DNA of 64,000 nucleotides from Tomocerus qinae (Eukaryota; Arthropoda; Collembola; Entomobryomorpha; Tomoceridae), in the NCBI GenBank assembly GCA_020055645.1, contig CM034548.1:7130001-7194000 (forward strand). Direction: 5' to 3'. Positions 1 through 62,651 of this stretch are shown here, in pieces. The position numbers were made by a program, and so were the translations under genes. A model generated the notes under the pieces. That model made no database searches and was not told where the DNA came from. It saw only the letters and a list, made by a program, of their open reading frames with translations. Numbering within the stretch: position 1 is the first letter of the stretch; each line of letters starts with the position of its first letter.

Positions 1-3000
1 TCTTTCGGTGCTCTTGTCGGTCCTCGTTGTTAAGATCACTGTTTACCACAAACACGAGTGTATTTGTAATCCACTTGGCATGAAATGCATTAAAACATCA
101 ATAACTCATGTAAAAGAGAATATCACTAGGCATGACTTATTTATCTCTGCACTGCTCACTAGTCCTTGCCAGTCCCAGGAAATAGCATTTATATAGCATT
201 ACACACCGTTTATTTACAAGTCTGTTTGCTAGCGTTTGGCTCTGGACGCAAAATGAGTTCTAATCAGTTCAAATCCTTCGGCTTCGTCTCACAGATTGCA
301 TTGAAAGAAAAGACAGCGACCTTCTCTGGTTTCATTATTATCAGATATTATTTATTAATGTTGAGCTGACGCTGGAAATTATTTGGCTTCCCCTACGCAA
401 CCTTTCTCTTAATAGGCTAACTAATGGTTATGTAAAACAGCCAGTAAGTAGTAGAAACGTCCATCTAATATATTCCTAATTTAGATCTGTTCGAACAACT
501 TTTTTGCTTTATGATATCGCTTTTCTGTCAAATACTTTATTATTAGGCATAGACATTCTACTAGCTTCCCCCTTCGCCTTACTATATCATCTTCTATTTT
601 CACTATACTCGTACATGTAAGTTGTAAACCTTTTTAATCACACTCGTCTATATGTGTATGGCTTAAGAATAGAAGATAGAATAGATCTTACATAGAGTGA
701 TACAGTGCAGATAGGACTCGATAGGAGCACATGGTAGCTTCCAGCTTAGTCGTTTAGCTCACGTTTCATGGCCGAATACGCTGGGATAACTAAAGTCAGT
801 CTTAAAATATTGGTAAGTAGCAAAGAAAGAAGTGAAACCAAAGCCGATGCGGCAAGCAATACAAATTAAAGTAGAAAATTGACTTCATCCCCCACATCTC
901 GTGCTTTAAGAATTATTACTCTTTTTCACTACGCTTGCTGTCAGGCTAAAGACCTTCATTCAAAATTTTCCCACTCCTTCCTCTCTTTTCATATCATTCA
1001 CATTTGTAACTAATTCATGTGCTATCTTACCTGTCCACCAAACAAAGATGAGCAACAGTGGAACAAAAGAAGAACACACAGCATGTACTCAATCAGGAAA
1101 TATACAAGACAACTATTTTGAAACAAGTTGCCTTCACTTGTTTCTTTATGCTTGCACCATTTTAACTGCTTGTAACACAGAAATACTATTTCCGTAGATT
1201 TCATTTGTTACCTGCTGAACTAATTCTTTAATTGGAGTCTTAATATAGAATAAATCTGATTGTCTAAGATTAGTAAACTTACGCATAGAAATGTTAGTTT
1301 CCAATAAGTCATTCTAAACTGAATCCCAATTTAAGATGTTATATTATGTGTCATGCTTGGAAATATGTAGTTATTCGATCTATTATGCAACAAATCAGTT
1401 CAATAATTTTATGTCTTTTTGACTGTACGCCTTGCAGAATTTTTCAAACCGATCTTTACGAAAAATTTGAACAACGGAATTTTTTAAATCAAAATGTCAC
1501 ATTAAAAAGTATTAAAGTATTATTAAAGCATGCTGAAAAGCATTCTAATAGTAGTAATAGTGTTTTGTCATTGTTCTCAATGCAAGATATTGTATAATAC
1601 AAAACTACACTTTTAATTTATTCAGTAAAAGGGAAAGGTCTAGCTCCTAGCATATTACAAGGAAATGTAAGGAAAATGTTAGTACATTTCCACAACAAAT
1701 TTTATGAGTGTTGGCAAAAAATGAGCTGGTTCTTAACATAGGTACCAAAAAACGAAAATGTAAAATCAGCTAAACAAGCGAAGAGAAGGATGCCATAATA
1801 TTTACCCGCCTACATTCTTACCAATCAAAGATTGGATGAATTTTAAAATAGGGGATCGTGTAGTGAGTGTACACTTAGGAAAAGGTTTGCTGAGGAATTA
1901 CTTAGCGACCGCATGCTTGACACAGTTTTGACACACTTGCTCATTTTCACGATGGCTGTGTGATGTGGAGGAACACACGCCCAGTTTTAACTAACAATAA
2001 GTGTGTACATACAATGGGCTTGGTTTAAGTCGGAGCTAAGATTCGTCTCTATTATTTCTTTATTGCTCATTACAGAAGAACAAATAAAAGAAAGTCAAGT
2101 TGAGACGGAATGACTGAGTCTTAAGTGCATCTCTCACATCACACTCCACTCAACAACCGTCTTACATATTTTCCGCTATCATATAAAGAAATGTGTTTGT
2201 ATCTATGTAAGTAGCTCCCGGTTCTGCTTCTGATTGTTTTCATTCTCCAATTTACCCCTTCATTTAATTCTCCATTTATATTGCTCTTGCTATAGACTCT
2301 GACTTTGTCTATCAATCCTATTAGCATAAATGTTATATTTTAGTAGAACAGCCGACGAAAAGGCTAGGCCCTGTCTGAATTTTATTTCGGAATCTACATT
2401 CGATGCGATGGTATCATTTCGTCCTAATAAGATTTTTTACTCTCCATCATTAATAATGAATAAGTAAATTTCAGTTCTCTCACACCTAAACTCCAGTCTT
2501 AGAAATCCAAACTCTATCAATATAAAACAATATTCCCAATCAAGAGACAGGAATTAGTTGATACCTTCAAACTTGGAATATTGTATACCGTTGAGCAACA
2601 TAATATTATGATGCATTAGTAGTCACAAAATAGACATGCATCTATGCACTCCACAATTGTTGCATTCAGATTCAGAAGTCTCGTGTTAGAGCACGCATTC
2701 TTATAGTTAATGTAGTATCCCGTTTTTATCCTGTTCATTCATTTGCTCCATTCATTCATTCGTTGTTTGGTTACTGACATGAAATTTGAGACTCAGAGAA
2801 GCACGCAAGAAAGAAACCTGAGACTTACAATCAGTCTCCACTGCACTCCCCACAACTCTACTACAGTGCAGTTATGCATGTCATGTTTATACATCTACTT
2901 CCTTATATCAGTCAGACAGAGTCAGAGCTGCGTAGCAAATAAATATCGTTGTCAGTATAGAGAAAGTAGTTGGACGCATTTATTTTCGTCAACTGGTAAG

Positions 3001-6000
3001 TCCATTGCATAGTAAAGGTAATGTGTTGTATCATAATGCTATAGCTGTAGTATAAGTACCAGGGTAGAGTGTTCTATATGTAGGTGAGTGAGCTGATTGT
3101 AAGATTTTTTGTAGGTAATGTAATTCTCATATTACTTGGCATAAAACATAGATAGGTGGAAGATGAGGCGAGTCGGCTGACTTAGGTTAGTTAATTTACG
3201 TGTTGGTTGTAGTTTGAGTGTGGAGTGTGTCATGTCATCCGGAGCTACCTGAGTTTCTACTTCACCCGCCCGCAAGAGGAGCAGCCACTCCTTCCTTTGT
3301 TACTTGCGGTCCATGTTCATCCATTCATTCATTAATGTACTTGTATTTGTTGGCCTTCCCTGCTCACACACTCGTCTTAAGAGCCCGGACCAAGTGCAAT
3401 GCAAACTCATTAAAATGGGATCTCTATCGACATTTGTACACAAAGGGAACGATTACTCCACACCATCAAAACACTTTACTACTTACCATCTCTATCTTAT
3501 CCTAAATGCATGTAGACCTAGCATTGTTATTATTCTGATGTAACTTTCCGATCAATTCCAGGATAAGTGTCACTTTTATATTTACCCTTACATATAGATG
3601 CCTTTCACCTACTTATGCACGTTACTTACCACAACGCATTATTGACACCGCCCTTCTTCTTGTCTTTACTCCATAGTAAATAAGAGCATCAAATATATCT
3701 GCATGGACGCTTAAAAGCAAATGAATCAATATGGTAAACAGTTACTTCGCAACTATATCAGTCTTAAGTATGAGATAAAATGACAATTTTATTTTACACT
3801 TAGTTTATTGGATCACATAGGTGGAGTCCAAAGAACAGTACAGTAGCAATGACAGAGATAATACAAATATCTAATAATGTATTCTTATGCTATTCATTCT
3901 CGCAGTTGGGACGTGGAAATGAATAAAGTGAGGAGCCAAGTCTCGTGTCGCGTAACACTAGTCGGCTACTTCTTTCATGAAACCAGAATAAATTTTAGGG
4001 CCACTAACGAAAAAGAAGAAATGCATAAGATGAGGGAGATGTAATGGTACTTGTTGTATGGTTGTAGTATATAAGTACCGGTAGAGAAGCGCTAATGTGT
4101 TTACTATAAGCACTCAATCTCTGTTTAATAACAAGGACTGTGAAAGTGACGCCTTTTGAACTCCTGTTTCTGATAACAAGTTTACAACTAGGGAAACCTA
4201 CTCGAAACACTCAAGTCGACAATACTTATTACAAGCTACTGGTTCTTCCCAAGGAATCTTATCTTAAAAGCACGGATTTTTGTTCAGAAATGCTTTTTAA
4301 TCAAAAGGGTTGGGTTTTATTTACATTGGAATCAAGGTGCACAAAAATACTGACTTAACATAGGTAAGGAGTGACTGAGAGTCCCATCGTACGCAGGTGA
4401 GACGCGTTTCCTTATCTGCTGCCAACACGAGTCCCCGACAATTCTTAGATACGATAAAGAAATTATTTTCTTAGATAACTACATACACTTAAGTATGTAC
4501 ATTTAATCTCTCTCCCTCTCTGTCATTGCTACTGTTTCACTCTGCAATGACCTATATTCCTATACACCTCCATTATCCTCGCTACAATTTACATAATCTA
4601 CTATCACTGGAAGAAAATCTCTCGAAACAACAAATGGTGTACATCTAGTAGATTATACCGTAGCTAAAGGTTGGACAATACTAAATGTATCTCTGCATTA
4701 GAATTCTTGAAATGAAGTAAATTATTTCTGCAATGGACTAAACAAAAGGGTTTTGTATTTAGAATATTTTGTAACCCGTTGTACTCCTTTATTATAGACA
4801 TAAGCTAAGACAGTGACAAAAATGCATAGATTATCCTCATACTTTTATCAATGACAGCATCACAATGTTCAAATGCAATTGTGTACAGCTCTGAGCCACG
4901 AAGGACATTTCCAAATTAGCAATTCCAATTTTAATGCACAATTTCACGAATAACATTTATGTACATTTACCTAAAAAATAAATTACATTTTATGCACAAA
5001 ACAAAGGATTTTACTCTTTTACAATGTGTAAACTTGTCTCCATTGCAAATTTATAGCTGTACGTTACATTCAGTTACACCAAAATTATGGCTATATTGTA
5101 TTCAATTGGAAAAGTTGTAGTCATACTCTCAATGCATTATACATCATTATTAAATCAACAACGACATTAACTTGTAGCAATATCTCAAGATATTACACAT
5201 GTAAAAACACATTGGAAGTTCCGTTCGAAACAAATTGTAAATGCAATTACAATATAATTGCCTCGTTGTCAAGCAATTCCATTTTAAAGAAAAATTTTGA
5301 AGGACACTAAAACATCTTTGCTCCTGGCGTTAATGTTAATGTACTAACACCACATTTTTGAGTCTCTGTACTTATAAGTGTCTTGCCTATCTCAAAGCAC
5401 TATCCGTGCTATGATTCTAGTAATAAACGTTACATGGGTTTACGCATGGTGTAAATATTTTGGCATGTTTTGTTACGAGAAACTTAAGAAATATGCTAGG
5501 ACATGTCTACATAATGGCATGTAAATGCATTTGACATAAATTGTTGGCCGGATGTGTACAGGTGATAATTTCTAAATAAACTATTGAGATTAGATGACAA
5601 GATTTAACTACAGCCTTGCTGATCTTGTCACTTCATTAAATATTATGCTGATTGCTAACGTATGTACGTAATCTAGAAAAATTATTAGCGTTCACGGATA
5701 ATGGAGAGCTATAAAGATAACAGGAGACAGAGGAATTCATCCTTCAGCACATATTATGAAGGTGCTCAGCTAGGTACTTTCAGTGAAGTACGTACTATAG
5801 GTAGATGGAAGAGTAGACCACCATAGAGAAAAGTGATAGAAGGTAATGTCGGTAATGTAATGGCAGTAGGTATTCAGGTAAGGATGTTTTCGCGACTCTG
5901 TCGGTTTGGCTTATCTCTGTCTGTCCTATACACGGCAGACAAAGTAAAGTAACAATCAATCTAAACAAGTAATGTTGACTGAAGCTCCTTAATCTTAACA

Positions 6001-9000
6001 GATGAGATAAGCTTAACTAAAAGATCAAATTGTTTTCATTATAATAAAGCGTAATGCATACAAACTAAGTACAACATAAAAGTATATGGCCATGGATCAA
6101 TAAATCTTGAACCATTAATATATGTGTGACTCGGAGAAATGCATCTACAGATAGTGAACACGTGAAAAAAAATTTGTGAAATAATGTTAGAGACGAAAAG
6201 GCAATTCTGTTGTGTAATCTTGAATCTGCGATGTTATTTTGGAAAATCTCAAATGAATACCGATGTACATTTCTGTTAGTTACATCAGTACTTACAGGAT
6301 GAATGTGTGAAAAAGTCAAATGTACAAAAGGTGTTTGCTGTTATTTTTTCCTTCGTACACGTTCTCATTTCCATTTAAGGACTATGAGAAAGTAATTATT
6401 CTTTCTTAGCTTACTCACATGTATAATTTCTCAACTAAGAACATGATGATGATGATCCATCCACAGGGTCTACGTACGTAACCTACTAACTATGTGGATA
6501 TAATACATTTGATCTTACCATTCATTAGTGGCCGTAGTGTTACTTATGTGACTACTCGCGCTTTCATCAGTATTCCTATGCAGACAACTATTTGAATAAA
6601 TAGTAAATGACACTTTTAATTAATAGTGTAATCCTAATGCATGTACCTTACATTTTTGCGGACGATATTTAATAGGTCCTTATTCGTAAATGTACAGTCG
6701 CCATATATGTTTAGATAAATAGTTGTCATATCTACTTGCACAATGTGCGCACATCAGAATTTTTCTGCTGCCACCGCATGACACTAAATTCTACACCAAT
6801 AATCCATGGTACTTTAGGGAGAGCTGAAATGTTAAACAGAAGCTAGATTATGCCATTAATATACAAACAATGGAATAAAACAAAAAACACTGTCTTTGTT
6901 TGACTTGGGGTACCTAACATAATATATTACTAGGTATATCCAAAATTAATAATACGAATTACCGTATAGTAGACTATTTGATAATATTTCTTACTACTTT
7001 TGCATATCATGTCCAGTTGAGTGCTTCTTAACGTAATAGACTCAGGTAGCATCATACTTGCCGTAAATTTTCTACAATATCATCCTCTTGAACACTTTTT
7101 CCTTCGCTACTGAACTAAATAGAATTAGCTATGCGTATTTAATATTTCAAAAGCAACTCAAGTTTCTATTAAGATATACATAACCATTAAATACACCTAC
7201 AGAGATGCATTGTTTTAACTTTTAGATACTAATACCCCAGTAGAGTTTAAAATGTTTAGGCTTGCATGCGGATAAGTAAACTGTAGATTTTTGGGATTAG
7301 AGATACACAATGTAATCTATGTCTGCGCTATGAAGGTATACATAATTCCTAAAACAATTGGGCTACTGTTTACTTGTTAGTTTATGCTTTAATATAACTT
7401 CAAAGGTTCAAACTCAAGACCAATTTCAATATCTTCTGATCACTCGAAGCATTATGACTACCTGTTTCAAATTTCAATTCAGTAAAAAATACTATTACGG
7501 TTGTAATGTTAAATCTAAACTGGTAGTGTAATATGGAAGCATTAGCTAAATTATACTGCTATTTGTGCAATTGATGCTATGTAATTGTAAGGATATAATG
7601 TCCTACAAATACAGATTATTTTTTTCTTCAGGATTCTCTGATATGAACCACGATTGAAAATTTAACTGGAGATGGATAAGCCTGATTGAACTCTAGTCCC
7701 AACGAGTGCATCATACGCAACTTACAATCTTTTAGCAGGTATAAACTTATACTTACAGATACTTAGGTATACGAGACAGAGTCTTAGTTTTTCTAGAGCA
7801 TCATACCGCCAAAGATGACTTGATGATGATGAAGCTGATACTTTGAATGATAATTTCGATTGTTGAAACTCATTCTTCTTTTGTTCGAGTTTAAACAGAA
7901 TTTAATCACTGCCTACTACTGCAGACCCTTCTTTCAGCACACTCCAGTCGTTTCCTTTTCTTACAATTCTTATTTCTCAACCTTACAATTTAAATAAATT
8001 TATATTACGCTTTTACAATGTTAACATAAGTTTACTTGCAGATATTTAAATCCGAACAGGGAACAAAGACTCGAAATAATTTTCAGTAAATACTAAAAAT
8101 TATCATAAAGTTACAGGAATAAAATTTTCAAGACATACAAAAGGCAATGACAAAAACCTAAGAATACATGCAGAAGTACCGTATTCAGTGCAGAAGTACC
8201 ACTTCCACTTCGTCGCATCCTTAATCCATCTGGGCATTTATTTGTACATTCACATTTTAAACTGAGAGCATTTATTTCGGAGATTATATATTTTTGGATA
8301 TGAAGTTCGGTATAATGGTAGTTAAAATTTAAAATTTTCGCAATGCTCTAGAGCTAGGGTTGTTCCTCAACTCCTTAATATAGATATCTATTAAGATACA
8401 TACCATATACCAAGTACAAGATATTGAGTTACCCCATGGTTTATCATACCTACCACAGCATTCCAAACCTATTCAATCCATCTAAAAATATGTACGTAAC
8501 AAAATAACTCAGAGGTATGCAAATTAGTTGTAGGTTGATATATCTGTTAATCAATAGCTGTGGGAGTTTGGTTCAAAATCAATTTCAATGCATTCTGGGC
8601 CAGATATTCTTAAACAGTACACAGCAAAATATTTTTTGTATCCAAGTATTCAGTTTATTATTTACCTAATTCATGCAGACAAAAAGACGAGCTGGAGTGG
8701 TTTACGTATAAGTAGCGTGGACAGAGTGATGTAAATAATTTATTGTGTGCAAGTAAGCAGAGAAGAATATTTCTACGGATGAAGCCAAGGTAAGAAGGCA
8801 AAAGTGTATATGTAAAAGGAAGAATATTTTATTGATACACATATTAAGGTTGCTGTGGATGTGAGTCCTATGTAGAGGTGAGTGAGTATGGATTAGCTTC
8901 CTCTCTTGCATACTAACAAAGAGGAAAACCAATCGCTTTCTGTCTGACAAGAAGAGCATTAGAGAGTACGAATATGATATATTTGGTGAGCAGAGGAGAC

Positions 9001-18848: not shown

Positions 18849-18877
18849 TTAAGGAGGGGTGGTAACTTTCAGAGCAA
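18849..18877 (+). repeat. Left TTAA duplication and terminal inverted repeat
   Basis: TTAA at 18849-18852 is followed by a 17-bp TIR (18853-18869) that reads GGAGGGGTGGTAACTTT. It matches the reverse complement of 23139-23155 at 15 of 17 positions, the two mismatches being adjacent (TA versus GG). Counting TTAA, 19 of 21 positions agree. A second block, AGAGCAA at 18871-18877, also occurs inverted at the right end (23117-23123). Confidence 0.85.
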
Positions 18878-19162
18878 GAAGGATAAATACTGTGACACTT
18901 TGCGAGGTGTGCATAAATTGCGATACAATATTATTAGCTCAATATCGTAAACAAACGCATTGAGGGTATTGCTTATTATTAGTTTGCTTTTCAAACAAGC
19001 CAAAAACTGTCCTCACTTCAATTTTGTTTGGTGATAATCTGACCTGAATCATAAATATCTGGGTAAGTACATTACTACCGTACTAACGACTTGTATCAGA
19101 TAACGTTTTTTATATCTTAAAAATATTGCGATACTGTACCTAATATACCATTTAATTTGCAG
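18870..19162 (+). promoter_or_regulatory. Probable promoter, leader exon and leader intron of the exonuclease gene
   Basis: A good donor (GG|GTAAGT, intron from 19063) and a good acceptor (TTTAATTTGCAG, ending 19162) define a 100-nt leader intron just upstream of the first coding exon. The reading frame that the downstream exons require has a TGA at 19045-19047 in this leader, so the leader is untranslated. The transcription start must lie between the TIR and 19062. A TATA-like GATAAATA sits at about 18881, but nothing proves its use. Confidence 0.4.
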
Positions 19163-19183
19163 TACAACAATGAGTCACAAAAC

Positions 19184-20580
19184 ATGTGCATCTTTGCCTC
19201 CACAAAAAAGGCAATATATTATATTCCAAAAGAGGTGGTAAGTACTTCATTCTCTCCGCCTCATTTATTACTTTTAGGCATCAATCATCACTTAAAGTTA
19301 ATTCAGTAAGAATAGTATACTTATTATTTTAAATTAACAGGAAGACATTTTGGAAATGTCAAAACATTTGACACCAGATGCTTACCACTGCCTGACTTCT
19401 AAAATTATCAAGCGTAGTCCGTGCAGCCGCATCCAAATGAACTCTGCTAAAAATCTTATCGTGGAGATTAACAAGAAGCCAAAAGCTGCTATGCCTCCTA
19501 ATGAGGGTCAGGAGACGTCTGTGAGTAGGCCCTCTAACCCGATTGACCTCGGTGCAGCACCAGTTCCTGGCCCCAAAATTTTAAATCGTGGTTTACCTCA
19601 TTTCCCTACCGTAAGTCAGTTTTAATTGAGGATGTTTAAAAATATTAAATGAGTTGGCAAGATTTTAATTACACTATTATAATTGGAAATAGGTGCCGTT
19701 TATTTACAGAGGTAATTTGGTCGCTGAAGCTAAGGAGGTTTCTTTTGACGTAGAGAAATTAGAACTCCAGGGAAGTCATAAGCAAGCAGCGTCATCAATT
19801 GCCGTGGTCAATAAAAAAGCCAAACTTTTACTGTGGGCAATTATAAATTATCCGAAAATATGCAAATATTTTACTAACCTAACAGTGATAACCAAGGAAA
19901 TGGTAGCTAATGGAAAAAAATTAGAGGAGGTTTGTGATTATCTTTTTTTAATTAATGATCTACTGGGATTACAATTACTTATTTTATGCTACTACTCACT
20001 CATGAAATTTCCACGAAATTAAATACAAATTAATTTTAACAGACATTGCCTTATATAAAGTCGTGTCTAAAAGGAAAAGTGGTCGTTGCAACTGAAATAC
20101 AAAAATATTTGGAGTCATTGGATTTGAATGCTAACACCGTTGAAGCTAGTCAACTAATCGACATTCAAGATTTTTACGTTAATATGAAAAAACAGAAAGT
20201 TGGAATGTCGTATTTAAGCAAGCATTTCTTTGGGGTCGACCGGCAAAACATAAATGGTCATCATTCGGCAATTATTGATGCCCGACTGACTATGCTGTGC
20301 TATCACCGGATGAAAAGATTTTTGAAAATCCACCCAAGTCTACAAAGTTTTCGCTGTCCTGAATTTGACGAAGAGCGATCTGCCGATAAAAAGAAAAAGG
20401 ATCATCTAAAATGGGGAAAAATGTACCTGTGGGTATGTAAAGCCGAAAAAATATCGTTCTCATCTGCAAGACCATTAGGGTATTTTTGGTAACGCAAATT
20501 CAAAACTTTTTGATGATGATAAGTGGGACTTTGGGGGATCAGCGACTCAAAGTAATGTAAATGATGACGAGTGGGAGTAA
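19184..20580 (+). CDS. Transposon-borne DEDDh-fold 3'-5' exonuclease-like protein, five exons
   Basis: Join 19184-19237, 19341-19610, 19693-19929, 20043-20432 and 20479-20580: 350 residues, no internal stop, all four introns phase 0. Donors are GTAAGT (twice), GTTTGT and GTATGT; every acceptor is AG. Exons 3 and 4 give the RNase-T/REXO/ISG20-type exonuclease fold: ExoI SFDVEKLEL (D127, E129), then an ITKEM segment, LIDIQDFY, and ExoIII GHHSAIIDA (H261, D266). The ExoII position, where the family has ...sDL, reads QKYL, so its aspartate is replaced by Y209. Residues 1-120 resemble nothing I know. A lysine cluster (about 302-306) precedes an acidic tail with two D/E-W motifs. The start is the first in-frame ATG after the leader acceptor. 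It lies inside the TTAA element and converges on the dead transposase. Substrate unknown; the exonuclease fold is fairly certain, catalysis is doubtful. Confidence 0.78.
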
Positions 20581-20625
20581 GTATTTTTATGATAACATTG
20601 GCTATTGGATGACACATGATCAAAC

Positions 20626-20631
20626 AATAAA
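20626..20631 (+). terminator. Poly(A) signal AATAAA of the exonuclease gene
   Basis: Canonical AATAAA 46 nt after the exonuclease stop codon (TAA 20578-20580), in AT-rich sequence. Its position fits a very short 3' UTR ending before the convergent transposase remnant. Confidence 0.5.
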
Positions 20632-20688
20632 ATATTATATTATAATTAAAATGAATTTATTATTTACACCATATTAGGATTGCTACCC

Positions 20689-20944
20689 AATAACATTACA
20701 TATTATTATCATGCACTTTGAAATAATGTAAAAATGTAGTAATTATAAATTTTGAATGAATTAAATTGTCACTCCGGGGTAATTACCATTACAAATCCCA
20801 CTCGTGAGGTGTAAAATTTTTGAATTTCTATCCTACACTCAAAAATTATAGTCTATAAAGTAATTGCATTCATTTCTACATCCAAATAACATTACACATT
20901 ATTGCAATTTACCATAAAATTTTTCCATTAATTAAATTGTCATT
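20689..20944. repeat. Degenerate direct repeat between the two transposon genes
   Basis: Two short blocks occur twice in the same order. AATAACATTACA is at 20689-20700 and 20885-20896. AATTAAATTGTCA is at 20759-20771 and 20930-20942. The spacing between blocks differs (70 versus 45 nt), so this is an old or patchy duplication. No coding sequence is evident between 20632 and 20944, where the missing C-terminal part of the transposase would be expected. Confidence 0.45.
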
Positions 20945-21858
20945 CAGTCATTCATTTAATCCAAATTTAGTTTTCATGGATTCTTGTACATTAACAAAAA
21001 CACTCGAATCTTGGTAAGCTATCATTTGTGAGTAATACATCCCATGCATTTCTTCACTTTTGAGAAATCCTTCGACAATTACATCTGTTTCCATAGAAGT
21101 GCTTGTTCCGTTATAGTTTTTAAAACATTTGTGCGGAGAATCAGGATGAACTAAACAAGTGTAGCAGCATTTATTTCGAATGTCGATGTGCAACAGTTTA
21201 CCAGTTCGTATTCGATGATAACCGCACAAACAGAAAGAGATTTGTATGAGTGTCCGTACGATAGCTTTCCCAACTACCGTCACAACTTATTGCTATACAT
21301 GGAATACCATTATAGTAAACAGTTTTTTCATCTTCTAGGGCTAATCGTAGTTCTTCCTTGCCATTTTCTTTTAAATTTTGAATCAAAGATAGTTCTTGGT
21401 ATTCATGTATTTTATATTCATTTGATTTGTATAATTTAAAATTAATTGGAGGGATATCCATTATTTTTAGTAAATCGAAAAGGGAAACATAGTCCCCACC
21501 AGATTCCATTGTTCCCCAAACTGCGGCAGTATTGATTGGTAAGGAATTGTTTTGAGAGTCCATCAAGACTGTAAACTGCCGACCGCAGTGGCCACATGCA
21601 ATGTGAAATCTGCGACGCAGTCCAATCCATGTCTCTTTTAAAAAATTTTAAATCACTTTTGAGGCAAACTTTCGCATGCTTTTGTGTTTCTTGGATTAGT
21701 ATTTGTAATGATTCGACTGAAACAATTCTTCTTCCATTAATGTCCCGAATTTCGTTCTCTTTCTTCCTTTGATTTTCTAGCACAACAGGAATAAGCTTTT
21801 TTGGCTTAAAGTTTTTAACTCTAGTCTTGATTGGTCTATGTCCGTATTTTTCACCCAT
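20945..21858 (-). pseudogene. Broken Mutator/Kolobok-type DDE transposase
   Basis: Reads right to left from an ATG at 21858. The first frame carries NGRRIV (about 21721-21738). It must shift near 21640, in a T/A homopolymer, to a second frame with a CxxC pair, NTAAVWG and the CDGSW motif (the D, about 21279-21281, is a likely first catalytic acid). That frame must shift near 21270 to a segment reading GKLSYGHSYKSLSV, and again between about 21240 and 21206 to a third frame with RTGK, RNKCCYTC, HKCF, a MET-D motif, EEMHG and QDSSVF, ending at a stop at 20945-20947. I recognise this motif order from Mutator-like transposase domains of arthropod elements. The region that should hold the last catalytic acid is absent. 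At least three frameshifts plus truncation make this copy inactive. It would have cut and pasted the element between the TIRs. Confidence 0.8.
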
Positions 21859-23116
21859 CGTGCAAAAAATCGTCTACCGGGGTGTAGCCGTTTGGATATC
21901 CCACTCAAACGTTTGTACGAGTATCACAATACTTCTTGTCTGACTGTCTTGTATACAATAATGTTGCCAATTAAATGAGGATTGTATATTTTGATCTATA
22001 CGTTGATGTCTTGTCGAGTCTGGCTTCTTACTCTAGTTGACCACGGTTACGTAAATATGAATAATGAGTTACACTATTCATGCTTCACGTTTTAAAAATA
22101 GGAATATCGTATCTTAATATGCAATAATAAACTATTCTGTTTACCCCGAATTGCTATGTATGCTCTTGCTCTACGACGTTTTGAGGATTGCAAACAATGA
22201 TCTTATTGGATTCCCAGTCAATTCACGCAACTAAACACAGTCGGTGACAATTACTGTTGAAATACAAAAAAACTAGTTATAATACTCCAAGATGTAGTTT
22301 ATAAAAATGATGATTTCGAAACTACTAATTTGCAGTAAGAAATCAATCTTAATTCGCAATTTTTTACCCGTATCAGCTGACGAGGATTTCAAGATCAAAC
22401 AGAATGATATTTTCGAAGGTTTGGACTCCTAGTCGAGTCTGGCTTCTAAATCTGGTTGACCACGGTGATAGTTACTGCTGAAACATGAAAATATAATTGC
22501 AAAATTTGATGCTGCTAGTAATTTATATAATTAATATGTCACCTCGAATTAGTTCTCTTATACTTACCACCTCAACTTATCCTTTTCAGATGTAGAGTTT
22601 GATGAGGGGCGAGGTCAAGAATTTTAGGGTTAAATGATTAAAAAATTAAAACTGATAGGAAAATGTCAGAAATAACATTTCGTAATTCTAAAGGAATGCA
22701 CAATCAACAATTGTACAATTGTGTTTGTTGGTTGTATTTCCACCATTATTTATGAATACTCCGTGCTGTCCTCCCGCAATTTTTATCGCAGTTCTTAGGC
22801 AAAATTTTGCATGTAAAATCTTTAAAAAATGATTTCAAGATTTTGGAAAAACTTAAAAATATAACAAAAATGCCATAAAAAAGAGGGGAAAAAATGAGGG
22901 AGAGCATGAGGCGCCTTTTTTTGAATTTGTGTCTGCAAATGTGAACAAAAATTCAAAATATATTTCTTACGTGTATTTCCCCACTCAAAATCAAAATTTT
23001 CAAATTGAATTTTCGATGACTTAAAAAATGATTTTTGAAAATTGGGCTTTCATGCTCGTTTTAAAAATCTTTGTAAATTCTGAAATAGAAAACCGCATGC
23101 CTGTACGTTTAGTCCA
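21859..23116. other. Non-coding right arm of the transposon
   Basis: About 1.26 kb between the transposase start and the right TIR. No frame here carries a recognisable motif. It contains the diverged internal repeats at 22013-22491 and AT-rich sequence with A- and T-runs. It should hold the transposase promoter and 5' leader on the minus strand. The left arm is only about 0.3 kb, so the element is asymmetric. Confidence 0.6.
22013..22491. repeat. Diverged internal (subterminal) repeats in the right arm
   Basis: A 35-nt block starting GTCGAGTCTGGCTTCT and ending GTTGACCACGGT occurs at 22013-22047 and 22432-22466 with 32 of 35 matches. A second block, of the form CGGTGA..TTACTG.TGAAA, occurs at 22242-22270 and 22463-22491, 221 nt apart. 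Together they suggest an old tandem duplication with a period near 200-220 nt. Subterminal repeats of this kind can be transposase-binding sites; that role is inference. Confidence 0.6.
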
Positions 23117-23159
23117 TTGCTCTGAGTAATATACGCTTAAAGTCCCCACCCCTCCTTAA
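23117..23159 (-). repeat. Right terminal inverted repeat and TTAA duplication
   Basis: On the minus strand this reads TTAA, then GGAGGGGTGGGGACTTT (TIR 23139-23155), then a 15-nt spacer, then AGAGCAA (23117-23123). The left end has the same two blocks separated by a single base, so the two ends share both blocks but with different spacing. Confidence 0.85.
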
Positions 23160-35100: not shown

Positions 35101-38100
35101 CTTACCAAAGTCAACAAAATTGAAAGTTGCCATTCACTATTAAGAGCTGTCTCGTCTGACAGTGTGAGTTTAAAAAGACAAATTGGATCGCAAGACTGAT
35201 AGACAATTTCATAGTATACAGAAAGGTTTTCTTATAACGTAGGCTATATATTTCGTATGTTACTAAGTGCCTTGTGCTACGGCTTGGGTTAGTCTATTTT
35301 TACGTATACGTTAGCCCAAAGATAGTGGGAGTCATTGTTTGTAAGATTTCTCCATCCATTCATTGTAACTTGTTCATTCATAACGTACTTCAACCACTTT
35401 AATATAACAACAACCACTTACTTATCCAGCAGTAATTCTAATTACGAATATATTTAACAATGGCACCCACGCTGAATGTAGGCAGTTACTAATTATTTTA
35501 TGTAATACAACAGTGTAAGCTAAATGCATAGCTGTAATATGCATAATGATGCAAGCCATTTGATAGGAAGAGCGAAGTTTATGTCAAGGAGAATAGTGAA
35601 TACTAATAGCTTTATGAATGTTATATTAAACTATGACTAGCACACAAGATTCGAATTCGCCAAGAAACTTGATATCTATACCTAGCAATAATAATAATGA
35701 TTGGATATATATTGCCGTCTGTGAAAGTATTTTACGACATTGCCTAAATAAACTCACATTAGATTTCAATGACCCTAAAACTATTTACATCGCTTCACAA
35801 GCAACATATTTTTTTAAAACTTCAACTTCAAAATTTTATATTTAAAAAACTGTTGTTGGGCGCTACTGTATAGAGGTAATACATTTGAGATATGATACTA
35901 TACGATAAGCCATAAGATAAAAAAGTGTAGACATAATTATTATTCTAATGTGGTATAGTAACTTTAAATACAATGGTGTGTAACTGAGTACGTGCATCAC
36001 TGAAATATTGTAATTGTTTTGAAAAGCAAGTACGAAGTGAAATGGAATCGAATGATAACGAAGATAATTCTGTCAATAATGAGTGTGTGTAAATAATACA
36101 GAGTCAAACTTCCATATGATTAGCTGACTAAGGAAGGACCACCATGTTATTAAGATTACTAAATGTCAAAACCAAATGTATTGAATTTGTTGGCCACCCT
36201 GAAGGATCACACTTTCATGACACATTCAAACTGAATGAAATATTCCAATTTTCAATTGCTCTTGAGTCTTTGGTGTGTTTGGCTGGAGTTGAAGAAGAAT
36301 TGAAACAACTCGTAATCCTTGTATTAGTTGGACTTGTAGATATTGCAGGTACAAGGAATGATGTCAGATTAGCCTATATTACCATCATTAGCAGGTAAAC
36401 GCGTGTTGCTTCCCAGCCTTCAATTAGTAAAAAATTAGAATAGCTATCATCTCATAATTTTCACAGTATCTAATTGTATGGCTGCCCTTGTAAGCCTTAA
36501 CCATGCAGACTCCCCGGAGCAGTCTCACCTTGAGACGGATAATTCCTATCCTATTAAACGTTTTAAGGTACAAAAGCTGCTGAAATATTAGTTCTTCTAT
36601 ACAGCGTTAAATTCAATTTTCCTCTTAAACTGCTTTTATAATCCTTCCTTTTCAATGTTGGCCATTGGGTGTCTTCGCTCATAATCTAAATAAATAGTCA
36701 TCACCTATTGGTTTCTTTTTGCTTGGAATTGTAACACGGAGTAATTCAACTCGAAGAAATTTCATATTTGTGAGCTTTGTGCTTACTATGGATTTTATTT
36801 TGGGGGAGGTGTGGGAAAGAGGGTGGGGAGAGAGGTGCGTTTGGGTCACGACCTCTCGCCCTGGCGGTCCTTTTGTTCTCCCTCAGACTGGCCACTGACT
36901 CAGACTCATAAAGCACGAGGAAAAGAGCAGCCGCTCACATCCGTAATATATGGTATTTACACGCTCATTATTTATTTTCACTTTCTTCACCGTTTTTACT
37001 TACAGAAACAATTTCCAGTTCCATGTACTCCTACAGTTATCTACATACTCATCACCATACTACCGTGACCTATATAATATGTTAAATGTATCTCCCTACT
37101 ATACTTAGACTATACTGCTCTGTCCAGCAGCCCAAATTTTGGTGGTTCCCTTATCTCATACAAAAATTTACATACGCTGTAGGTGTAAATCAAATACACG
37201 AAAGTATACATGAAAATATTCCTTTATCTGTGATATGAATACTTACACTCATGTAAGTAAGGGATACAGCAGTAAGTAGCTACAAATGAATGAGTCAGTA
37301 ATAAGTAATATATTATGATGCATATAATTGCTATTCAAATGTAATAAGGACGCTTTTTATAACTTAGGCACAAAGACCCTTTCACAACTCTAATGTTTAT
37401 AGAACAAAACTTTGTACATCCTGTATTAAGTTTTCAACCCAAAAAGAATTTCTATAAATAATGGACACTTAAGTACAATTAAAGTTAACAAAGTTCACAA
37501 GTTTCTTGCACTAGGCTAAAATCCACAAAAATATAATAAACTTAATGCACGAATTTGCACTTAATTCCATGATTCCAAGACGTGCGGATAAAGGAGTTTC
37601 TTTGTCCCGTAAAATATTGTTTTTGGAAAAAGTTTGCTATTACTGCACTCTTTTAGATAATTTTAAAGTCGATTGTAGTATTTTATGTACACGTTTCTGA
37701 TAAAAGACCATGTGCAATCTATTGGCTTAGTATAGCAAATATTTATATTCATATCGTGCGTAGAGATGATTTACAATGCCAATACGTCAATGCTATCACT
37801 ATTTAATTAGTTGATATGCTTGTAAATAAATTCTCATAATGGTATGTAACTATTGGCAGAGTAAAATGTTCCACAGTGAAGATATAAATATGAATTTATG
37901 CATGTTTTGCATGTTTCTTGTTGCGTATGTACCCCTACTAAATACATGTATATAAAATAGTCAAATTTTTACGACAGGAATAGCTTTGGCAGCAGCAGGC
38001 ATGCTAATTCAGCTGAGTCCACACATAGCGATGGGTATAGAACAGACAAGAAAGTACGAGTACAGTCTGTGGCCCTTCGAATCCATTAATTACAATTGTC

Positions 38101-41100
38101 CAGATTGTACTTCCTACTTGGGACCTCCTACAGGGAGTTCTTCCAATCCAAATACTGACTCTTTATTTCTAATTTCGAAGTTCCAAATACAAAGGCATTC
38201 ACAAATGTCCTCGTTGGGATTGTTGCCTGCCTGCATATCTACTCTTATAATGATATACTGCTCATTTCAATCACTTTGTGTTGGTAATTGTAGATACGAT
38301 AATTTTATTTGTTTACTGCCTTCTACAAGACAAAGTAAAGTCTATCTCCTTGTATATCAGGTCAATAGTCAATGAAGCCGTACAGTATCTGAACTCCCAC
38401 GGTAGGGCTTTGTTACTTACCTTCCTGTTCAGTACTGTAATGAAATTTAAATATTACAATTGGAACATTATTTAGCTACTAAGGCCATATTAATACTAAA
38501 CAGTCCTTTGGATCTCCATGCTACTTAGTTAACCTTAAAAACTACTCAATGGATTATGGATTACACTTCTGTTCTCAAAGAAAGGAATGTTAATCATCAT
38601 AATGAAGAACTCAAGACATGAAGATTGTTTTCTTCTTTCAGAAATATTGAAATGTCTCCAGTCGGCAAGTCACTCAAAAGTATATCTACTTACTACTTAC
38701 TATGGAATAAAACAAAAATTTTAAACCCAACCACATTAAAATTCTTAATTTTGGGTTTTACATTTTATGTTGAATGCGTTTGCTTATCTCAATAATTAAG
38801 AAAAGGTAACGTCTTTTACTTGTTCTGTTGGCTTTCCTTCTAAGCCGAAGTTAATTTAGGTAATACTGTATTGTTTTTTGTAATGCTGAAGTTAAATTGT
38901 TTTACACGGGGCAGATTATGTCGTGGTATAGACAGGTCTAGGCTAAAAGGGTTCTTTTGTAAATCTGAGTGAGATGATCTGGGTCCTCACAGTGAGAGTT
39001 GTGCCTTTTCCTTCTTCTCCATTCATTAATTCATTCAGGTGTTCTCCTCTCTCTTTCAACTCTGTTCAATTGGAACTCTCATTGTGAGATTGTTAATTTA
39101 CCTACGGAGTATTTTCTATAGTGTCTTCACTATTCACCAGCTATTCACAATTACAATGGAATAATAAGTATTATACGCGAGCATTGTACGGTTCCATCGT
39201 AAATAGCATAACAGAAGATGGTTGTGTAATGCCATAAAGCCATGCCTTACATTGTGTTCTACAGTTTTGTTGTGTGCATTCAATTGCTCTGTGCTATTGA
39301 CCACGTCCACTGATATCCCATGTTTGGTCATAATTTGCACGATTGGGACGCCTCGTTTAGCCGTATTTGGCTCCTTTAAATTATCCTTCGTGGGGGAGGC
39401 TTCTTCATTTATTCGTCACCTGCTCTCTTCCACCACATTCGTCTCTAATAATCAAATAGCATTCAACAAACTATCCAACTTCACCTTACATCATTCATAA
39501 CGCATATACTCAACACAATTGACCATTTCTACCATTCTATCTCATTGTTTTCAATTACTGTTTCAACACGTGTCTTATGGAAATAATATTATCCTTCCTG
39601 GGGTTTTTTCACTGCTAATTAATAATCATACAGAATGAAGACTATAGACCCCCGTAAAAGACTATGAATCTAAAACCAAAAAATTCATGTAACTTATATT
39701 GGCTGTTTAAGGCTAAAAAATTATTTTGTTAAATAAAATTTTAATGGAAGAAAGGTTTTCAAAATAAGAGATATCTCATAAATTGTGGTTTAAAACTATT
39801 TTGGGAAAGTATACTATTGAAAACTGTGGAGAACAGAATTTTTATATTTTCTCCTCTTTATGGACTGTATAAAATGAAGATTGAAGAATTGTATACAAAA
39901 TAAATATTAATCTTTTGCCAAAATACGAAGTTCGAGAAACAGTCTCAAAATTTAAAAACATGACAATAAAACTTTTTGAAATTTGCTTATTTTGACATTT
40001 TAATGCTCACCCCTCCGTAAATATGTTTTATACACAATATTGCAACTATAATCTGTACTCACAAACAAAATATTGTTAGGTATTCGTCATTCGCTGCATT
40101 CTTGCTAAAATAACCGGAGTTATTCTTATACCGGTTTATTTTTACATGCACTATATTATAGTGCAGGATTTCATTTCCATCCCAATGCAATGGCTACAAA
40201 TTCGATATTGATACTATTATAAATCAATGTGATAACAGAATTTTTTTCTTCAACGAAACTAAATGTAATTGATTCTTATAAAACGAAGGTTTAGCTAAAT
40301 TTAGGGATTTTAGACTGTAATGGATTGATAAAATAGGATTGAAGGTAGTCGTAGATGGGTGGACGTAGTGAGGATAGAATGACTTGCTGCACTTAACAGA
40401 GATAAAAGAAGTTTAATTGCGTCTATTTAGTGCATTTAGTAGTTGTATAGAGAGGATAGATATTTATGATGTGGGGAATGCTGGTGACTCGAGTATTAAG
40501 AAAGAATGGACACAATGGGCAGCTAACAAGTGAAAGTCTCATTGACAGATGAGGAGAGCCAAAAGCAAAGGCCATTAAAAATTTGCACTGTCGTAATCAA
40601 GTCACTAGTTGTCAGTTGATGCATTAAAACTTAATAATGTTGTTGGAGCGACTCAATTGAGAAAGATGAGCAGGAGCGAGGAGAATAACGAACAGTCTTG
40701 CAAGTCATGAGAGAAACAAGTGTGGAAAAACTATTAGCAGTAGATTATTGTATTGTGTGTAATGTAATGTATGTACTAGATATTCCGTAGTGTACTTGCA
40801 TGTAAACGATTATAAAATTGATATGCTTACGTTGTGCTGACTTGGTGAATTTCGAGTAGGAGTATCAAATCAAGTTGAACGAAATTGTATCAAGGCAGTG
40901 TGAGCAAATATGGGCAAAATCAGTCAAATCAATCTGATTAAAACAAATTCAAGCAGATCAAGATCGGAGCATAACGTGCGTGGGTCACAAACTTCTTATT
41001 CATACAATTCCCTTTGCTGTTGCTACTAACAATACGCTCTCAAGGCATAACAACCAACTAACTACTCACTAAAATGCACACTATCTGTAATCTGTAATTC

Positions 41101-44048
41101 TGGTCAAGTCACTTTGTCTGGAATTGAACTTTTTTCTTCTTTTTAAATTGCAGCTAGGTACTTTAGTAGGCTGTCCTTCCTTACACAGAGTGTCTTATGT
41201 GTCTATTTTATTCTTGAATTATTATGCAGTGGCATAAATAAAAGACTATATAAATTGCCTCACAACAAATGCGTATTCTCTACACGCATCCTTCCACCAT
41301 TCTGTATACATTATGCAAAGTACACTGCATAATCTATACCAGCGATTAAGACAATTTTCTTGCCTAGTCCACAAACTGCAATAATAGAAACATGAATTAC
41401 GTAAAATTAAATAGGTTGCTAGTTTCTCATTTTTAGACTAGTATCGCAACATTAGCGACTCTTAAAATTGTATAAGCTATTGCTTCCAGAGAGTTGTTGG
41501 ATTTGCGAAGAATATATTTTAATAATATAAGTACATTATTCTCGTTTTTTATACGTTCATTATTATTATTACTTGTTTAAAATACAATTCTTCAACAATT
41601 CAGAATAATAATAAGGTTAAATATATTGAACGCTGTAATAATCTCTAGTACTATTAGTATGCAGTGTAAATAAAGGTTAGAGCTACTGCTCGGTAATTAC
41701 AAACAAACCATTCCTTATTTATTTGTGCATAACTACGTGCTTCACATATTAACAAACATTTTATTTTTTGAAATCTATAATTATATTCACACAAGAAAAA
41801 GAGTGCTGAAGTGTTTTGCATAATTGGCATCCTTGCACATGCTGATGTAAAAATCATACCAGTTAAAGAGTTACTACAAGTTAAAGCGTAGTAATAGATT
41901 CAACGCTAGCGAATTCTACATTGACGAGAAATACTATGAAAATATTTTATAATCATTTCGTATGTGTTAACTAATTTAAGTAATGATTTTAGAGCGAAAG
42001 AATTTAAAGGCATGACTATTTATTTGAACAATTATTTTGTGGCTATGATAAGATAAAATATACTACCAAAGATAATGTTATCAGAGCTACGGACAAATAC
42101 TAGAGAGACTAGAAACAATAAATTCATGGAAATGCAACTGTTGATACAGAAAGTGTGTTTGTAATGTTTCTATAATACTGTAAGGAAGAGAGTATCAGCT
42201 TATAAGACAGAATGGATTACCTAGACAAGGCAATATAATATAGGAAGATTCAAAGTCAAAGGATGACAAGACAGCAGCCAAGATGAGATGAGATGGACGA
42301 GAGTGGAAGAAGATACAGTTTGTTTGTTGTTGGTTGTAGAATATTGGTTTCCTAATTTGGCATAGGTTCCACAACAGACAGGTAAACATATTATTATTAC
42401 TATTAGCTACATATGTGTGTGCATGTACTAATAAGCTTGGCAGGATTATAAATGACTTAGTAAACGACAGAATGTCAGAATGTTCAATTTACAATTTAGT
42501 CAGTTCACAACTCACACGGCAAAAAAGAACAAGTAAAATGAACATGGCAAAAGAAAGAATGGAACCAGGATTCCATTTGTTTCAATATAAATATGTAGTA
42601 TAGGCACATTAATATTATAGAAAATGGGAGGTTGTGAACTAATTGTAGGTAAGCAAACAATTGTTGCTTCGCAATTACTCCACGCTATACCCTTAGCAGC
42701 TGTCTCACTCTGATCTATTTATCTGCATCATCCTTTTTCCCAACTTTAAAATTCCCAACAAAATACAAAGAGAGGTCTTTTGTATTGATTCTAGTACATC
42801 CCTTGTAGGTATTGCTGCAGCATCGAATTACATAAAGTTCCTACATAAGAACGTATGTAATGCTAGTTAACATTTATTTTTGATGACTTTTTGTAGCAAA
42901 TGGAGCTAAGGCATGTTGTAAATGTAAGGCATATATGTAGTATAAGGACATACAGTTGCATCTGATTATTAGTGTACTAGGACGGCAAGAATGAATTAGA
43001 AGGTGTTTTTCGCGTGGGAAGAAAGTACGCAAGCAAAAGCTCTCTAGCTCCTTGTTCAACTCTGTTAAGGTGCTTATTATTTCTTCCTTTGGCTAGAATG
43101 GATTTACTACGGTGTAAAAGGTGCTTCTTTTACTACACTCCACACACTAACACATGTGCACTCAAGACATAGACCATAATAAAATACCTATCTGACTATG
43201 CTAACTGCTATATTATGTCCCATATGAATCCATAATTAAACGTAAAAAGAGACACAATGATTCATTTACCCAGCAATTTATGTTGCGGCACAACTCTACA
43301 TCATAATTACACTCTTCCATTTTGCATTTTAATACGTGTCCTTTTAAGAACACATTATAAACAATTTGTAAGGGCTACGATACTTAGTATTTGTCTAGAA
43401 AATTTAATCAAACTGGCAATTAAATCTCGAAAAATATTTCGGGATACTTTTATGCACATAATAATATAGAAACTCGTAATTTATTTTTAGAACTGTTTAA
43501 AAAAATTATGAATGCATGTCAGGTTACTGTCAATAATTATATAATGACTCCGATAGTACTAGATACAAAATGACAAAAGTGTGCAGTGGTAGTCATGACT
43601 TGTGCTTAGTAGACTAGTAGATTGGTAAGCCTTGTTAATGATCAATTAGATATGGTGGTTGGGTCACTGCATTGAAAGGTTCATAACATGAAGCCCGTGC
43701 TGTAGCTTGATCAAAGCCTGACGGACATTAATTTTACCGAAAACGTTTTGTTCTTTCAAATTCATTAGGTGCTTAGCATTCTGACAACCTTTAGATTTCC
43801 ATATCGATTATCAGCCTTCTTAGTCAAGCAATTAATATGCAAGAAACGTTGTGTCATGATTATCAATATCGACTCAATGAGTTCAGGAAACTGTTTGTTC
43901 TGCACCAAATATACATAGGTACACATACATGTAGGCTTCTTGAAATCCTTGGACATGAAATACAATATTGTCATGTCTACAGAGTACTTCGCAATAATAG
44001 TGAATACCTGTAAGCGAGGCTCGAGCTCATTCTTATTCCTCTTGTGTA
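23160..44048. other. Gene-free AT-rich sequence
   Basis: No gene is supported. Open frames up to about 130 codons (for example near 23439-23813 and 37986-38375) have no recognisable domain, are rich in residues coded by AT-rich triplets and do not join to others through good splice sites that I could find. A short GC-rich patch at about 36800-36945 and a TIR-like heptadecamer near 40009 stand out and are discussed as findings. Confidence 0.55.

Positions 44049-58441: not shown

Positions 58442-62651
<4,210 letters not shown>

Follow-up and report, generated by a model that had tools for sequence, protein, structure and literature searches.

The name KolobokD was given in 2022 by Kojima and Bao (PMC9587614) to Kolobok elements that carry a gene for a DEDDh exonuclease. 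According to the part of their paper available to us, these elements occur in molluscs, arthropods and cnidarians, their exonuclease is likened to Exuperantia, TREX and ERI1 and is proposed to degrade DNA intermediates, and a lambda-type nuclease is placed under KolobokE. Here we analysed a 64,000-nucleotide stretch of the genome of the collembolan Tomocerus qinae (contig CM034548.1, hereafter the window), in which positions 18849-23159 hold a 4.3-kb transposon with a DEDDh exonuclease gene and the remnant of a Kolobok transposase gene. The original prediction, made from the letters alone, held an exonuclease as second gene of such an element to be undescribed, which the report of KolobokD, as far as its available text goes, contradicts. 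The element is mobile, it has lost an internal stretch together with the C-terminus of its transposase and one active-site residue of its exonuclease, and a conserved set of three genes is present in relatives elsewhere in the genome. Overall, it is best explained, and probably so, as a KolobokD-type deletion derivative that would be mobilised in trans and whose long relatives possess two nucleases, which may process DNA ends.

On the left, the element starts with a TTAA target-site duplication (18849-18852) followed by a terminal inverted repeat (TIR) that begins with GG (18853-18869, plus strand); on the right, the opposing TIR (23139-23155, minus strand) is followed by the second TTAA (23156-23159). 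Sequence, an end-pair scan and genome copies agree on these boundaries. TTAA and the 17-bp TIRs are identical at 19 of 21 positions (18849-18869 versus 23139-23159), and the first 14 bases at both element ends match TTAAGGAGGGGTGG exactly. With a score of 19 this is the sole TTAA-anchored pair of its kind in the window at a spacing of 300-10,000 bp, another pair scoring 18, and none of 20 dinucleotide shuffles reached 19 positions (best shuffle, 18), which bears out the predicted ends. The TIR pattern matched three times in the window versus 0.14 expected, and two of these matches are the element's own ends. A TIR-like match with two mismatches at 40007-40020 had no facing partner of the pattern TTANGGAGGGG in 38000-42000 and was set aside as chance.

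We searched the element's own genome (334 Mb in 115 contigs, the window being positions 7130001-7194000 of contig C3) and found at least 35 matches at 97-100% identity, the window copy counted; this number is a lower bound, as 32 of 330 preliminary candidates were scored. All but one of the 35 cover nearly the full query, the remaining one (L019) lacking the first 89 bases. Both exact TTAA-TIR ends are present in 32 of the 35 retrieved copies, and in two copies (L012 and L043) the ends are slightly damaged. The 12-base flanks vary between copies, except at the junctions within two head-to-tail pairs. Taken together, the TTAA-TIR ends, the copies at 97-100% identity and the differing flanks establish a real, mobile and recently amplified element. 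The 32 exact-ended copies, which we aligned leaving out L012, L019 and L043, form two subfamilies of 11 copies (including that of the window) and 21 copies, with mean within-subfamily substitutions of 0.23 and 0.30% and maxima of 0.45 and 1.58%, respectively. Because divergence within both subfamilies is this low, the window family was amplified recently. We also observed that each of the head-to-tail pairs L030/L036 (C2:36477279-36485900) and L040/L041 (C2:66309127-66317737) has one TTAA common to its junction, as if one copy had landed in the target site of the other or tandem dimers had formed, and that two copies at G000:C5:20963003-20971581 lie head to head with approximately 21 bp between them. 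No relatives were recovered from a viral contig collection scanned for the exonuclease, for two pieces of the transposase and for the TIR pattern, nor from a genome contig collection scanned for the exonuclease and a single piece of the transposase.

The transposase remnant (20948-21873, minus strand) consists of three overlapping frames. Two minus-strand frames match the Mutator-like transposase profile PF20700 with E-values of 3.3e-18 and 1.3e-16, which confirms the assignment to a Mutator/Kolobok-type transposase; the match extends no further than position 264 of the 357 in the profile, and the remnant hence lacks the C-terminal portion of the domain. The first catalytic Asp (21279-21281) and, after it, a CCHC zinc finger (21125-21166), an arrangement that also characterises KolobokD, were both placed by eye. 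The truncation lies ahead of the C/DxxH motif, which by eye is retained as CVNH in L045, L046 and L047, three of four divergent loci (with L044) that we first retrieved through exonuclease matches. Alignment with L045 located the missing stretch: window positions 18849-20839 align to L045 2339-4303 at 94.2% identity, and 20956-23155 to 6127-8336 of a joined stretch of L045 and the neighbouring copy L048 at 95.9%. At 20840-20956, approximately 1.8 kb of the 6-kb relative is therefore absent, comprising the gene for a YqaJ/lambda-type nuclease, which in KolobokE stands downstream of the transposase, and the transposase C-terminus. A length of 4275-4319 bp leaves no room for that C-terminus in any of the 32 exact-ended copies. 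The element is thus almost certainly of the KolobokD type and an internal-deletion derivative of an approximately 6-kb form. L045 and L048 form a head-to-tail pair whose junction, at 8300-8370 of the joined stretch, is CCTCC-AA-GGAGG, the TT of TTAA being absent.

In L045, L046 and L047, a transposase open reading frame (ORF) is followed by a separate downstream YqaJ ORF, and a DEDDh gene faces them from the other strand. The transposase ORFs comprise 370 residues plus a second fragment of 171 residues in L045, 541 residues in L046 and 567 residues in L047, with PF20700 E-values of 4.9e-69, 9.3e-71 and 1.6e-70 over profile positions 1-327, 9-357 and 1-357 of 357, respectively. The YqaJ ORFs (340-354 residues) match PF09588 with E-values of 3.3e-16, 1.5e-17 and 1e-14, respectively, and a profile of the three sequences matches the solved exonuclease 3syy (4.4e-18) and lambda exonuclease 1avq (3.6e-9). 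TTAA-TIR ends enclose all three genes in L046 (6242 bp) and L047 (6745 bp), each with 13 of 14 TIR positions, and in a further locus, L051 (6268 bp, 12 of 14 positions); L045 has TTAA at its left end only, its right side running into the tandem second copy. As in the window family, where 32 of 35 copies have the 4-bp TTAA duplication, L046 and L047 are flanked by TTAA, and the termini inside it read GG...CC in all of these, in line with the 5'-RR...YY-3' ends of Kolobok. In the more decayed L044, pieces of all three genes (transposase, YqaJ and exonuclease) are arranged in the same way; beside them, at 5657-7999 of that locus, lie ORFs that by eye resemble a non-long-terminal-repeat reverse transcriptase. 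The predicted arrangement of exactly two convergent coding units therefore describes the deleted window copy, and the longer relatives have three genes.

The exonuclease gene of the window copy lies on the plus strand and was compared with L045 and aligned relatives. Exon 1 (19170-19237) is out of frame relative to L045, exon 2 (19341-19610) follows from the spliced model, exon 3 (19693-19929) contains the ExoI Asp and Glu at 19747-19755, and exon 4 (20043-20580) retains the His at 20262-20264 and the ExoIII Asp at 20277-20279 and has Tyr at the ExoII position (20106-20108). A fifth exon had been predicted on account of a 46-bp intron at 20433-20478, which is an artefact of a frameshift near the 3' end of exon 4; in L045 the corresponding region is coding, and the fourth exon continues to the stop. 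The frameshift is common to all 11 members of the subfamily to which the window copy belongs, and codon 279 is a stop in 20 of the 32 aligned copies. At the ExoII position, Tyr occurs in all 32 aligned window-family copies and Asp in none, whereas L044, L045, L046 and L047 have Asp; the five DEDDh residues are retained in four of five aligned sequences, the window copy being the exception. Because of the frameshift and the replacement of a catalytic Asp in every aligned copy, the exonuclease of the window copy is probably dead, and we dropped the idea, contradicted by the same two features, that it has stayed intact and selected here while the transposase decayed.

The spliced window protein matches RNase_T (PF00929) with an E-value of 3.9e-4, which is under the Pfam cut-off, PolC-type models with 1.4e-7, far under their own cut-offs, and a PHROG exonuclease with 1.1e-4; single exons of the window, and exon 4 of L045, L046 and L047, gave no RNase_T match. 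A DEDDh profile built from five sequences had four matches at an E-value threshold of 0.01, namely ISG20 (1.4e-9), ISG20L2 (6.8e-8), SDN1 ("Small RNA degrading nuclease 1"; 4.6e-5) and the PolC exonuclease (9.2e-4). Exuperantia, TREX and ERI1 were considered as closest solved relatives and rejected, as they were neither among these four nor among three single-domain matches at E-values up to 10.

In the long elements, the DEDDh protein appears to be under selection, because in all six pairs of exon 4 among L044-L047 the proportion of nonsynonymous differences (pN, 0.27-0.42) is below that of synonymous differences (pS, 0.72-0.84), with the synonymous substitution rate saturated in four of the six. 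The transposase and YqaJ genes gave similar pN/pS values (three pairs each). That the DEDDh gene is mere cargo, without function in the long elements as well, is very unlikely: copies with the ExoII Tyr have still spread, and one transposase-YqaJ element (L052) has only an exonuclease trace, but the catalytic residues are retained in L044-L047, and their exon 4 frames have stayed open at amino-acid identities of 37-58% and a nearly saturated pS.

We then compared the genomic positions of the two nuclease genes. The exonuclease domain has at least 180 exon-level matches in the genome, with 42-54% identity to the window's domain in L047 and L046, and 108 matches were obtained with the YqaJ protein of L046. 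The best 46 of these 108 correspond to 44 YqaJ loci (two being second pieces of loci already included), and 74 exonuclease entries, compiled manually from the matches listed, represent 73 loci, one having been entered twice. Among the matches listed, at least 19 of the 44 YqaJ loci lie no more than 6 kb from an exonuclease entry; all 19 pairs are on opposite strands with their 3' ends facing. Among the matches listed, 54 of 73 exonuclease loci have no YqaJ entry nearby, as would be expected were many of them deletion derivatives, which the window copy is. Among the 25 of 44 YqaJ loci without a listed exonuclease nearby, we read three: L051 has a full exonuclease gene that was not among the matches listed, L052 has transposase and YqaJ with the exonuclease trace (E-value 2.3e-4), and L053 has a fused transposase-YqaJ ORF of 825 residues (1595-4069) with no DEDDh match, which is the KolobokE pattern. 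A captured or exapted host gene that lies by chance in a Kolobok remnant, which the prediction had also entertained, is exceedingly improbable. Of the frames in the window copy, that of exon 4 is the longest by a narrow margin (150 residues; the next has 149), but the number of matches speaks against a single-copy host gene, and the facing linkage to YqaJ and the frameshift and lost catalytic residue of the window copy count against a host gene too. The exonuclease belongs to the transposon: its homologues face transposase and YqaJ within TTAA-TIR ends in L046, L047 and L051, and the same facing orientation is found in L045. Neither a shorter TIR element without the exonuclease nor a single-copy host gene at a syntenic locus lacking TIRs was seen.

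We propose that the window family moves in trans, with the transposase of long relatives recognising its TTAA-TIR ends (TTAAGGAGGGG), and that its own DEDDh gene would be a decaying passenger. In the long elements, the transposase would cut at TTAA, the lambda-type enzyme would resect DNA ends and the DEDDh enzyme would trim 3' ends or flaps; the processing of donor gaps or excised ends may thereby favour the element. Known lambda-type relatives have 5'-to-3' polarity and known DEDDh relatives 3'-to-5' polarity. We give such a role of the nucleases in DNA end processing slightly less than an even chance.

Several observations weigh against parts of this proposal. The proposed trans-mobilisation is deduced from shared ends. 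Only one 6-kb copy with the ends of the window element was read, L045; its transposase is split over two frames and its right junction, with a tandem copy, is damaged, so no fully intact transposase partner with these ends was shown, and no empty site or allele for the TTAA insertion was seen. Copies in which the DEDDh gene is broken have nevertheless multiplied, so the gene is dispensable in cis; L052 has only a trace of it. The closest profile matches are ISG20, ISG20L2 and SDN1, enzymes known to act mostly on RNA, and a role on RNA is therefore as good a fit as the trimming of DNA. Small RNAs are substrates of SDN1 in plants, and the DEDDh protein might likewise be an RNA exonuclease that removes the small RNAs or precursors silencing the element. 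We retain this alternative in view of the nearest solved relatives, most of which are exonucleases of RNA, but it is unlikely: profile similarity does not fix the substrate, the proofreading exonuclease of PolC, a DNA enzyme, was also matched, the pairing with a lambda-type nuclease points to DNA, and DNA intermediates were proposed by the 2022 authors in the text available (PMC9587614). Quite unlikely, too, is a division of labour in which KolobokD-type elements are three-enzyme transposons whose ISG20/SDN1-like DEDDh protein destroys silencing small RNAs or transcripts and whose lambda-type enzyme handles DNA ends; if true, this would be a DNA transposon that encodes a nuclease of its own against silencing.

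Elsewhere in the window, positions 60729-62651 hold a long exon of a zinc-finger gene with three C-terminal C2H2 fingers, KLF-like by eye. A search of the window with Rfam at gathering thresholds and a scan for tRNAs returned nothing.

Compared with the described systems, as far as the available text of PMC9587614 goes, the element shares with KolobokD the Kolobok transposase, the CCHC finger after the first Asp, TTAA sites, RR...YY ends and a DEDDh gene; unlike KolobokD, the window copy lacks the transposase C-terminus. The KolobokD text names one accessory nuclease, whereas the relatives found here add a YqaJ/lambda-type nuclease, and its published likeness to Exuperantia, TREX and ERI1 differs from the ISG20, ISG20L2, SDN1 and PolC matches of our profile. 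KolobokE resembles L053 in combining transposase and lambda-type nuclease; no DEDDh exonuclease is named for it, whereas L045, L046 and L047 have a DEDDh gene besides separate transposase and YqaJ ORFs. KolobokP likewise has a Kolobok transposase and, downstream of it on the complementary strand, a nuclease gene, but its nuclease is of the His-Me finger type and it has long terminal direct repeats, neither of which the window element shows. In the literature searched, the names KolobokD and KolobokE, and the combination of lambda exonuclease, DnaQ and DNA transposon, were found in PMC9587614 only, and YqaJ and DEDDh in one element were not found described, although the supplementary data of that paper may hold such elements unnamed. 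The window copy is thus an ordinary deletion derivative of a known Kolobok type, and it is the three-gene combination that we did not find described. A transposase with two exonucleases of presumed opposite polarity would constitute a compact natural toolkit for steering the repair of cut DNA, and several families with open frames in one genome make such steering testable. The loci compared here suggest that KolobokE, with its transposase and lambda-type nuclease, and KolobokD may differ by one added gene.

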